DNA of 64,000 bases from Stomorhina lunata. Taxonomy: Eukaryota; Arthropoda; Insecta; Diptera; Rhiniidae. The stretch is taken from positions 4,508,001-4,572,000 of the forward strand of contig OW121740.1 in the NCBI GenBank assembly GCA_933228675.1, given 5' to 3'. The notes under the pieces are model-generated. The model saw only the letters and a program-made list of their open reading frames with translations. It had not been told where the DNA came from and ran no database searches. Position 1 is the stretch's first letter. Each line of letters begins with the position of its first letter. The translations under genes were made by a program, and so were the position numbers. Positions 2,632-60,180 of the stretch are shown one piece after another.

Positions 2632-3924
2632 AAAGACATATACTAAGGCATAGACAAAGACATAGACTAAGACATAGACTAAGACATAGACTAAGACATA
2701 GACTAAGACATAGACTAAGACATAGACTAAGACATAGACTAAGAAATATACTAAGAAATAGACTAAGTAATAGACTAAGACATACCCTAAGACTTAGACT
2801 AAGACATAGACTAAGACGTAGACTAAGACATAGACTAAGACATAGACTAAGACATAGACTAAGACATAGACTAAGACATAGACTTAGACATAGACTAAGA
2901 CATAGACTAAGACATAGACTAAGACATAGACTAAGACATAGACTAAGACATAGACTAAGACATAGACTAAGACATAGACTAAGACATAGACTAAGACATA
3001 GACTAAGACATTGACTAAGACATAGACTAAGACATAGACTAAGACATAGACTAAGACATAGACTAAGACATAGACTAAGACATAGACTAAGACATAGACT
3101 AAGACATAGACTAAGACATAGACTAAGACATAGACTAAGACATAGACTAAGACATAGACTAAGACATAGACTAAGACATAGACTAAGACATAGACTAAGA
3201 CATAGACTAAGACATAGACTAAGACATAGACTAAGACATAGACTAAGACATAGACTTAGACATAGACTAAGACATAGACATAGACTAAGACATAGACTAA
3301 GACATAGACTAAGACATAGACTAAGACATAGACTAAGACATAGACTAAGACATAGACTAATACATAGACTAAGACATAGACTAAGACATAGACTAAGACA
3401 TGGACTAAGACATAGACTAAGACATAGACTAAGACATAGACTAAGACATAGACTAAGACATAGACTAAGACATAGACTAAGACATAGACTAAGACATAGA
3501 CTAAGACATAGACTAAGACATAGACTAAGACATAGACTAAGACATAGACTAAGACATAGACTAAGACATAGACTAAGACATAGACTAAGACATAGACTAA
3601 GACATAGACTAAGACATAGACTAAGACATAGACTAAGACATAGACTAAGACATAGACTAAGACATAGACTAAGACATAGACTAAGACATAGACTAAGACA
3701 TAGACTAAGACATAGACTAAGACATAGACTAAGACATAGACTAAGACATAGACTAAGACATAGACTAAGACATAGACTAAGACATAGACTAAGACATAGA
3801 CTAAGACATAGACTAAGACATAGACTAAGGCATAGACTAAGACATAGACTAAGACATAGACTAAGACATAGACTAAGACATAGACTAAGACATAGACTAA
3901 GACATAGACTAAGACATAACCTAA
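2632..3924. repeat. 12-bp tandem satellite (GACTAAGACATA)n
   Basis: About 107 near-identical copies of a 12-bp unit run without interruption. The first 200 bp are more variable (for example ACTAAGAAATA and ACATACCCTAAG), and a 6-bp phase slip (GACATAGACATAG) occurs near 3271-3290. Because 12 is a multiple of three, the minus strand reads as a long VLVYVLVY open frame, which I treat as an artefact. High internal identity with decayed edges is the usual signature of unequal exchange. Degenerate units also occur at 5216-5265 and either side of the MITE at 7211-7560. Confidence 0.95.
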
Positions 3925-57918: not shown

Positions 57919-58362
57919 TTATTTAAAATGCTGTAAAATGTACTTCACTTCATCTAAAGTGAAGTAAAATTTACTTCCATAATCAAATTCAATATAACTT
58001 TCTTGTATTGTCTGGTAATTCATAGTCAATTTTGGAGCTATTCGACCTCGTTCAAGAGCGGACAAACGTGCTAAACAGTTGCAGTAGTCGCAGTATAAGT
58101 ATTTCAACGAGATTACATTCCTTTGTAATAGATTCTCTAGTTGATCATACAACCAGGCTCGCCAGATTTGCTGAATTATAGGCATTTTAGCTATTTTTAA
58201 CCTAAAAAATAGTAAAGTGCCGATATGAAGATTTTTACTAAAAAATTGGCGTTTTTTGTTGGGAACAACATACAAATTTTGAATAAAAATTGTACTATAT
58301 ACAATTTTTTCTACAGAAAAATTTTCAATATTAATTTTTTTTTTATAAAAAAAAATATTCAT
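57919..58362 (-). CDS. Unrecognised 147-codon open frame, doubtful
   Basis: This is the longest frame not made wholly of tandem repeats, but its N-terminal third (58220-58362) is A4T4-type satellite read through. The rest, from IAKMPIIQQIWRAWLYDQL to the C-terminus, is less biased and contains CDYCNC and LSALERGRI. The latter faintly recalls the helix-turn-helix start of Tc1-like transposases (L-x-x-ERGRI), but no second helix pattern or catalytic region follows. There is no sign of splice sites, promoter or poly(A) signal that I can support. Most likely a chance frame or a fragment of an unrecognised element. Confidence 0.2.
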   Translation of the reverse strand: MNIFFYKKKINIENFSVEKIVYSTIFIQNLYVVPNKKRQFFSKNLHIGTLLFFRLKIAKMPIIQQIWRAWLYDQLENLLQRNVISLKYLYCDYCNCLARLSALERGRIAPKLTMNYQTIQESYIEFDYGSKFYFTLDEVKYILQHFK

Positions 58363-58990
58363 TAAAAATTGTTTACAAACATTTTTAATACAAAATTGTT
58401 TCTACCGAAAAACTTTCAATAATTTTTTTTTTTTCGATAGAAACATTTTAAATTTTTTCTATCGAAAATTTTCCTTATAAATTTTTATATAAAGAAAAAA
58501 TTTTTCATATATAAATTTTTATACAACAAAAAATTTTCTATATATAAGTTTTGCAAAAAAATATTTTCTACATAAAATTATTTTGTATAGAAAAATTTTT
58601 TGGGAACAAAATAAAAATTTTTAATAAAAAATTATAAACTATATAAAATTTTTTCTACAAAAAAAATTTTAATTAAAATTTTTTTTATGAAAAAATATAT
58701 TAATAATTTTCAACATTAATTTTTTTTTTTCTGTTTTGGTAGAAAAATTTAAATTTTTTGCTATCAAAAATTTCCCCTATATAAATTTTTATGTAAAGAA
58801 CAAATTTTCAAATATTAATTTTTTAATGGAAAAATTTTTTAAAAAAAATTTTTTTTGCAAGGAAATATTTTCTATATACAATTTTTTTGTATAAAACAAC
58901 TTTTTGGGAACAAAATAAAATTTTTTAAGAAAAAATTGTGCTAGATAAAATTTTTTCAACAAAAAAAATTTTAATATAAATTTTTTTGAA
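58240..58990. repeat. A4T4-type array with ~310-340-bp higher-order unit, left part
   Basis: The phrase GGGAACAA followed by AAATTTT recurs at about 58260, 58598 and 58907, and each time leads to a TATATAAAATTTTTTCTAC-like stretch, a long T run, CTATCGAAAATTT and a TATATAAATTTTTATGTAAA-like block. The third copy is cut by the foldback element and resumes at 59863. Confidence 0.7.
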
Positions 58991-59019
58991 AGAAATTAAT
59001 TTTAGTTGAACCAGAATTT

Positions 59020-59058
59020 ATGTTGATGGTCGTGGGTTCGAGTCGGGCTCAGGTTCAT
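59020..59058 (+). other. tRNA T-arm-like segment, left arm of foldback
   Basis: GGTCGTGGGTTCGAGTCGGG contains a near-consensus B box (GGTTCGAGTC). TAGTTGAACCAG at 59003-59014 is a poor A-box candidate just outside the arm. It is followed inward by a T run. The mirror copy is at 59819-59857. Confidence 0.5.
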
Positions 59059-59136
59059 GTCATAAATTATTTTTTTTTTTTTAATTTATGATTTTTAAAT
59101 TAGATGAATAAATTTTAGGAATACTGAAAAAACTAT

Positions 59137-59205
59137 GTGACACTTAGCAGTGTGGAATGCTGCATTTTCTGTCCCGCTACGGACTTCATCAGCACACTGT
59201 GTCAC
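59137..59205 (-). ncRNA. Hammerhead ribozyme-like motif, left arm
   Basis: This is the exact mirror copy of the motif at 59673-59741, on the minus strand, with the same stems and core. Because the two copies face inward and outward in opposite senses, a read-through transcript would carry one copy in sense and the complement of the other, and could instead fold into a long duplex that masks both. Confidence 0.65.
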
Positions 59206-59330
59206 CAACTGTTAGATGCCAGTAGTTAAGATCATCTATTTAACTGAATTCTTAAGCGAAATTGAAAACGAGAATTATATTAACACTCATTTCTATTTCA
59301 CCTATGACCATATGATCGATTCAGTTAGAC

Positions 59331-59547
59331 GGTGCATGGGCACCGCGATTTACATGTTTTCATTAACTCTTTCAAGTTGATACTAAATTCAAATTTGCAT
59401 TAACGTAAAAGAATAAACAGAAACTTGTCAAAAAAAAAATCTTTGTCTTCATTACCAGCTGATAGTTGGTTAAAGTACAAAGTAAATGTAGATTAATAAA
59501 GGATAGGAATACAAAACATAAAGGAAAAAACTATGGTGGATAAGTTC
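59331..59547. other. Spacer of the foldback element
   Basis: The 217-bp loop begins with a 5-bp hairpin (GGTGC/GCACC around ATGG) and is otherwise AT-rich. No open frame of interest. TTCATTACCAGCTGATAGTT near 59450 is the only less biased stretch. Confidence 0.6.
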
Positions 59548-59672
59548 GTCTAACTGAATCGATCATATGGTCATAGGTGAAATAGAAATGAGTGTTAATA
59601 TAATTCTCGTTTTCAATTTCGCTTAAGAATTCAGTTAAATAGATGATCTTAACTACTGGCATCTAACAGTTG

Positions 59673-59741
59673 GTGACACAGTGTGCTGATGAAGTCCGTA
59701 GCGGGACAGAAAATGCAGCATTCCACACTGCTAAGTGTCAC
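59673..59741 (+). ncRNA. Hammerhead ribozyme-like motif, right arm
   Basis: All parts of a type I hammerhead are present in order. Stem I pairs GTGACA (59673-59678) with TGTCAC (59736-59741) and CAGTGTG (59679-59685) with CACACTG (59724-59730), with a CTAAG bulge between. The core CTGATGA is at 59686-59692. Stem II pairs GTCC (59694-59697) with GGAC (59704-59707). GAA is at 59709-59711. Stem III pairs AATG (59712-59715) with CATT (59719-59722) around CAG, and C at 59723 is the predicted cleavage nucleotide of a UUC triplet. The weakness is an A-A opposition at the base of stem II, where a pair is normal. Confidence 0.68.
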
Positions 59742-59818
59742 ATAGTTTTTTCAGTATTCCTAAAATTTATTCATCTAATTTAAAAATCATAAATTAAAAA
59801 AAAAAAATAATTTATGAC

Positions 59819-59857
59819 ATGAACCTGAGCCCGACTCGAACCCACGACCATCAACAT
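59819..59857 (-). other. tRNA T-arm-like segment, right arm of foldback
   Basis: The minus strand reads GGTCGTGGGTTCGAGTCGGG, identical to the left arm. On the plus strand it follows a run of 12 A, so a plus-strand transcript would end with an A tract and then the antisense of a tRNA T arm. Confidence 0.5.
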
Positions 59858-59862
59858 AAATT

Positions 59863-60180
59863 TTTTTTATGAAAAAAATAAGCATTAAAAATTGTTTACA
59901 AACATTTTTAATACAAAATTGTTTCTACCACAAAATTTTCAATATAATTTTTTTTTTTTTTTTTTTTTTTTTTTTGTAATAGAAAACTTTTAATTTTTTC
60001 TATCGAAAATTTCTCCTATATAAATTTTTACTCGTATGTAAAGAAAAAATTTTATATATTTTTAAATGGAAAAATTTTCTATACACAATTTTTTGCATAG
60101 GAATATTTTCTACATACAATTTTTTTGTAAAAGAAAAATGTTCAATGAAAAATTAAAAAAAAAAATTTTCGGACATCAAA
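59863..60180. repeat. A4T4-type array with higher-order unit, right part
   Basis: It resumes the pattern seen at 58340-58560: ATTAAAAATTGTTTACAAAC, then TTAATACAAAATTGTTTCTA, a ~32-bp T run, CTATCGAAAATTTCTCCTAT and a shortened end. It confirms that the foldback split a pre-existing tandem block. Confidence 0.7.

Follow-up and report, generated by a model that had tools for sequence, protein, structure and literature searches.

Insertion in the window

The window, by which we mean the whole 64,000-nucleotide stretch of Stomorhina lunata DNA that was analysed, contains an insertion at 58988-59855, in which two partial copies of a 565-nt non-coding unit, here assigned to family A, are joined head-to-head. 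The inverted copy (58988..59331, minus strand) is 5'-truncated, runs from monomer position ~558 down to 215, and has its "tail" end at 58988. The forward copy (59333..59855, plus strand) covers monomer 1-523 and has its "short" end at 59855. A 12-bp target site duplication, ATAAATTTTTTT, borders the insertion on the left (58976..58987) and on the right (59856..59867), and both copies were checked letter by letter. The host sequence is an AT-rich tandem repeat of ~304 bp (58300-59000 and 59861-60180). AT-rich repeats with AAATTTTTCTATAGAAAAAT-like units were seen by eye to host many other family-A insertions. The longest open frame in the 565-nt monomer is 52 amino acids, and the monomer holds neither a reverse transcriptase nor a GIY-YIG endonuclease.

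Perfectly complementary arms of 261 bp were confirmed by sequence comparison; they flank a middle of 215 bp. The foldback-like unit proposed in the initial annotation did not hold up, because the arms belong to two head-to-head copies of a tandem 565-nt unit, with unequal ends, variable 5' truncation, and a 12-bp duplication. The "foldback" of the window is a short example of an array, with less than one unit in either direction.

A terminal stem is predicted by folding in the inverted copy (59007..59057, minus strand), where TGAACC at 59057-59052 pairs with GGTTCA at 59012-59007. In the forward copy, the letters and the family-A fold place the 5' strand TGAACC at 59820..59825 on the plus strand; the partner strand is missing because this copy stops at the short site. 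On its minus strand, the terminal region of the unit reads GGTCGTGGGTTCGAGTC (59015-59058 and 59818-59855), with a possible likeness to a tRNA T-arm or B box.

Hammerhead motif

The forward copy carries a type I hammerhead motif at 59673-59741 (plus strand). Stem I is built from the inner strands CAGTGTG (59679-59685) and CACACTG (59724-59730) and the outer strands GTGACA (59673-59678) and TGTCAC (59736-59741), with the bulge CTAAG (59731-59735) on the 3' side. The core CTGATGA (59686-59692) is followed by stem II, GTCC (59694-59697) with GGAC (59704-59707), at whose base A59693 and A59708 are opposed. Next come the GAA of the core (59709-59711), stem III, AATG (59712-59715) with CATT (59719-59722), and C17 at position 59723, after which the cut is predicted. 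Every part was verified letter for letter, in the order given in the initial annotation. The motif shows the features of a type I hammerhead, with the conserved CUGANGA ... GAA core, an open stem I among its three helices, and UH preceding the cut. A mirror motif, the exact reverse complement, lies in the inverted copy at 59137-59205 (minus strand), with its core at 59186-59192 and its predicted cut beside the C at 59155. The ATG of the core at 59686-59692 also opens an 18-codon frame, MKSVAGQKMQHSTLLSVT (59689-59745); in the Anolis Penelope, an open reading frame likewise begins within the hammerhead (PMC11167929).

The descriptor combined the conserved core with stems I, II, and III of at least 7, 4, and 4 bp and tolerated one mismatch at the base of stem II. 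It matched the 64-kb window exactly twice, at the plus-strand motif and at its minus-strand mirror, and gave 0 matches on both strands of 400 dinucleotide-shuffled windows. When the stems were relaxed to 5, 3, and 3 bp, 6 matches were obtained across the 400 shuffled windows. The covariance-model check proposed earlier was negative: no Rfam family reached its gathering score anywhere in the window, and the Rfam hammerhead models returned nothing at E<=10 on pieces of 1,101 nt or 106 nt around the motif. RF00163 gave one match against the whole genome, with an E value of 6.55 (73 of 59,897 candidates scored). The Rfam model also misses many other family-A copies, and its silence on the window copy therefore carries little information.

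Folding of a 76-nt piece gave -20.1 kcal/mol for the hammerhead fold, compared with -23.2 kcal/mol for the minimum-energy fold; for the circular unit, the hammerhead-bearing fold reached -123.4 kcal/mol and the minimum -128.3 kcal/mol. The base pair 10.1-11.1 of stem II is usually G-C. Here, this position has no standard pair, being A-A in the window copy and C-A in the sister family B. Judged from its sequence, we regard 59673-59741 as a well-supported ribozyme motif with putative catalytic activity.

Copies across the genome

The family-A ribozyme core pattern gave 1,253 matches in the 728-Mb assembly, a number that is not an exact family count, as 2 of the first 100 matches listed bear the family-B loop. 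In tandem arrays, units of ~530 nt are joined by a constant 35-nt spacer, which together make up the 565 nt. We examined 23 insertions (L001 and L034-L055) of 40 counted clusters. Tandem units were present in most of the fetched family-A insertions; with partial copies included, the counts are 4 inverted and 9 forward in L034 and 4 inverted and 7 forward in L035.

Insertion ends were assigned by eye. On this basis, 20 of the 23 insertions have a tail (monomer ~552-565) at one outer end and a shorter end at the other. The shorter end fell at 508-530 in 18 of those 20, with ten exactly at 522, and at 471 and 474 in the remaining two. The exceptions were L041, a diverged copy with ends at 504 and 517, and L043 and L054, which have a single orientation without an inverted arm and end in the tail on their 3' side. 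In five insertions (L034, L050, L051, L053, and the one in the window), target duplications could be read and measured 10-12 bp; they were less clear in the remaining ones, where the flanks are AT-rich. The inner head-to-head breakpoints were scattered (38 values, KS p=0.43, after exclusion of four ambiguous ones in L035, L037, L039, and L041, minus side), and 2 of the 38 lay within 5 nt of the predicted cut (p=0.17). Among the first 100 family-A cores listed, opposite-strand neighbours within 1.5 kb were arranged head-to-head in 16 of 17 pairs.

By eye, the 69-nt motif was unchanged in 91 of 96 full-length copies, the latter being what remained of 105 aligned rows after removal of nine (junctions, partial copies, family B, and one spurious row). 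The copies are young, so this conservation is little evidence on selection. A search of IMG/VR viral contigs with the core pattern CTGATGANGTCC...GGACAGAAA gave one exact match (L075, 2316-2342), which was rejected as a hammerhead after no convincing fold or outer stems were seen by eye.

A sister family

Family B has a unit of ~463 nt and was first found beside L046 (reverse strand, about 3222-3850); it also occurs in L073 and L074. The two families share 72.8% identity over 125 aligned positions from the hammerhead onward. A core pattern that excludes A at the base of stem II had 1,725 matches in the genome and 0 in a reversed control, and nearly all of the first 100 matches listed belonged to family B. 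In these first 100, 17 of 18 opposite-strand pairs were head-to-head. The ends of one family-B array were fetched, and it was short at one side and had the tail at the other.

The family-B hammerhead retains the core and the helices, with one stem I pair swapped from T-A to A-T. In a covariation analysis of three hammerhead rows, this was the one pair altered on both sides, and the count was not significant, since 168 of 500 shuffles scored at least as much. Stem III is palindromic in family B and nearly so in family A, as expected for hammerheads that act as dimers. The occurrence of A-A in family A and C-A in family B makes the stem II mismatch a family trait and not decay of the window copy. 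The proposal of a ribozyme in a foldback unit can be retained for the ribozyme, given the motif, a core that recurs 1,253 times, and helices kept in family B, but not for the foldback unit.

Ten copies start exactly at the family-B cut, compared with 5 that start one base upstream; 7 of those 10 carry T at the cut base and may be point changes. As a genomic footprint of cleavage, these numbers show no clear hot spot. The lack of a clear pile-up at this site is compatible with a circle and also with an uncut template.

Penelope-like elements and the terminal stem

A search of the genome for GIY-YIG domains gave two matches, one of them inside a Penelope-like fragment. An open frame that adjoins an SLX1-like GIY-YIG gene is presumably MED31, a neighbourhood that suggests a fly genome. 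A protein search with a Penelope-like endonuclease yielded 150 scored matches, 11 of which lie in open frames of 830-864 amino acids, and one piece of 627 amino acids contains both reverse transcriptase and GIY-YIG domains. In the Penelope-like elements at L056-L070, the endonuclease is followed by a hammerhead-like core of minimal size. Several of these cores have one extra base at the base of stem II, and the core is degenerate in L069 and L070. Stems I and III of family A are longer than those of these minimal hammerheads.

In four Penelope groups, the hammerhead-like core is followed by GACCTC(G/A)AGCTC, then by AAGGTCGAA, and then by a tail; in two groups, some copies (L057, L059, and L065) end early, ahead of AAGGTC. 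The matching places are GAACCTGAGCCCG ... GGTTCAACTAA in family A and GAACTCAAGCCTG ... AGTTCGAATAA in family B. When aligned by eye, the terminal stems GACCT/AGGTC, GAACC/GGTTC, and GAACT/AGTTC differ in their letters but keep their pairing. By folding, the terminal stem is predicted for families A and B and for one Penelope group out of four. BLAST of family A against 15 Penelope-like loci gave only weak, mostly AT-rich matches.

Family A has the insertion layout of Penelope-like elements, with head-to-head copies, one tail end, and a target duplication of ~10 bp. A hammerhead had been called unusual for the unit in the window; in a Penelope-like layout, it is what one would expect. By analogy with the Anolis Penelope (PMC11167929), we propose that the terminal stem at 59007..59057 may be the recognition and start region for reverse transcription.

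Marker uniformity within insertions

The alignment comprised 56 complete units, 49 of them from ten insertions with at least two units each. Outside the long A-run, 9 within-insertion site-by-insertion differences were observed, compared with a mean of 48.2 and a minimum of 33 in 2,000 label permutations; this test takes in short indels, and some linked columns are counted separately. When only substitutions were counted, uniformity did not reach significance, with 7 differences observed against a permuted mean of 9.7 and a minimum of 5. Private markers were found in all complete units of L034 (10/10), L035 (8/8), and L045 (8/8), in both arms, and in all complete units of L043 (4/4), which has a single orientation. 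Such markers occurred in these 4 of the 10 multi-unit insertions, and the remaining six had none. They are short indels, mostly within A-runs. The length of the long A-run varies even between adjacent units, as slippage would give; the lengths were still more alike inside insertions, with 41 differences observed and a permuted mean of 66.1 (minimum 42).

The private markers suggest that each insertion had a single template, which was a monomer and probably a circle. The simplest account would be one monomer that was copied several times over, starting on both sides of the target. Such a monomer would most naturally be circular, and a circle would most naturally be made by the hammerhead.

Discussion

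The insertion in the window, together with its relatives in the genome, is best read as a metazoan-type retrozyme, with a 565-nt monomer and a type I hammerhead, that is moved by Penelope-like elements via a circle, and we consider this reading probable. It is supported by the tandem 565-nt units with their constant spacer, the insertion ends, the target duplications, the head-to-head pairs, the private markers, the Penelope-like open frames, the terminal stem, and the core kept in family B. Against it stand the negative covariance-model result, the A-A opposition in stem II, the competing folds, and the substitution-only test, as well as the lack of a clear excess at the cut site, the lack of convincing BLAST similarity, and the report that cleavage is dispensable in Anolis (PMC11167929).

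In the proposed mechanism, tandem genomic copies would be transcribed, and the hammerhead would cut the multimer to unit length, either alone or as a dimer formed via the near-palindromic stem III. A host ligase would close the monomer into a circle, as suggested for published retrozymes. A Penelope-like reverse transcriptase-endonuclease, of which open-frame copies were observed, may then bind the terminal stem-loop. Copying would begin at either of two sites and give rise to the "tail" and "short" ends that were observed. The marker uniformity suggests that a single circle is copied again and again, with both cut strands of an AT-rich target as starting points. Two cDNAs would finally meet at scattered 5' positions and produce the head-to-head arrays and the 10-12 bp target duplications that were observed. 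Both cleavage by the ribozyme and the formation of RNA circles are inferred steps. For the most specific version, in which each insertion stems from one ribozyme-made circle that was copied for several rounds by a Penelope-like enzyme from both cut strands of one target, with one start site on one strand and a second, ~36 nt away, on the other, we regard the case for and the case against as about balanced.

Movement by a Penelope-like enzyme is also part of an explanation in which a long tandem transcript, and not a ribozyme-made circle, serves as the template. The A-A would leave the hammerhead with little or no activity, and the arrays would be uniform as their source arrays were. An idle hammerhead would fit the mismatch in stem II and the competing fold. 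However, the mismatch is common to both large families, as A-A and as C-A, and an axolotl hammerhead with U-U at the same place still cleaves (PMC7229834). A tandem-transcript template would agree with copies that do not pile up at the cut site, with Anolis insertion that is independent of hammerhead cleavage (PMC11167929), and with the weak substitution-only test. It does not sit well with markers private to an insertion that recur in 10/10, 8/8, 8/8, and 4/4 complete units, since a new change in one source unit can reach all units only via a one-unit stage. We consider this explanation unlikely, though still worth weighing.

Two further explanations dispense with retrotransposition by a Penelope-like enzyme. 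The first takes the insertion for a foldback or MITE-type DNA transposon, whose terminal inverted repeats are moved by a transposase and carry the hammerhead as a passenger in the arms. The window copy seen alone, with its 261-bp perfect arms round a 215-bp middle and its 12-bp target duplication, would fit such an element. We rejected this explanation as highly improbable because the outer ends are unequal in 20 of the 23 insertions, so that the same inverted termini are not at both ends; the centre is a variable head-to-head junction, tandem units are present in most fetched insertions, and L043 and L054 have no inverted arm. Very improbable, too, is a satellite DNA homogenised through unequal exchange and gene conversion. 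It would account for tandem arrays, for units that are similar within arrays, and for A-run lengths that are more alike within insertions (41 observed against a mean of 66.1 and a minimum of 42). Yet the copies are dispersed, with target duplications and recurrent end positions, their opposite-strand neighbours are almost always head-to-head, and the long A-run differs between adjacent units while the other markers are uniform.

For the retrozyme reading, the insertion ends point to an answer on the helper: like the Penelope-like elements of the same genome, both families have a terminal stem and end in a tail on one side and at a short site on the other. The fixed private markers provide a DNA-level test for a template that is one monomer and probably circular. 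If true, the circle-copying reading would reveal which helper moves metazoan retrozymes, and dual priming rather than self-priming would explain head-to-head Penelope arrays. Among the titles and beginnings of abstracts that were listed from the open-access literature, no report of these findings was found.

Comparison with known systems

Published Penelope copies form inverted repeats, most often head-to-head, may bear a 31-bp tail at one end, and have target duplications of 8-10 bp in the described cases; self-priming is favoured there (PMC3846280). The Anolis Penelope enzyme cleaves and extends both strands and uses two adjacent internal start sites, which explains the tail (PMC11167929). 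In the same study, the Anolis hammerhead cut only in the presence of protein, its cleavage was dispensable for insertion in vitro, and no reads started at the cut. The system described here shares with Penelope-like elements the tandem or head-to-head copies, a tail of 30-40 nt at one end, target duplications of ~10 bp, AT-rich targets, and a hammerhead upstream of the start region of reverse transcription (PMC11167929, PMC3846280). It differs from them in its 565-nt unit without reverse transcriptase or endonuclease.

Among hammerheads, the axolotl HHR_Amex2 is likewise of type I, belongs to a tandem repeat, and has a mismatched stem II base; it works better as a dimer (PMC7229834). The mismatch is U-U in HHR_Amex2 and A-A here, and stem III is longer here, with 4 bp or, in a dimer, with the near-palindromic AATGC-A-GCATT. 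Plant LTR retrozymes are also hammerhead-bearing non-autonomous retroelements that are thought to move via circular RNA, but they have LTRs, type III hammerheads, 4-bp target duplications, and suggested Gypsy-type helpers (PMC7229834).

Metazoan non-LTR retrozymes are tandem repeats of 150-450 bp with type I hammerheads that are found as circles, and Penelope-like elements are their suspected helpers (Cervera and de la Pena 2020, PMC7229834). According to a 2020 review (PMC7761336), and similarly to PMC11722881, no conserved motif names this helper. Common to metazoan retrozymes and the present families are non-coding units that measure a few hundred bp and are repeated in tandem, each with one type I hammerhead, target duplications of more than 4 bp when present, and Penelope-like elements in the genome (PMC7229834). 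Unlike the retrozymes reported there, the family-A unit has 565 nt, the stem II base is mismatched, and the arrays are head-to-head with one tail and one short end. Families A and B fit the metazoan retrozymes and add their insertion ends to what is described for this group.
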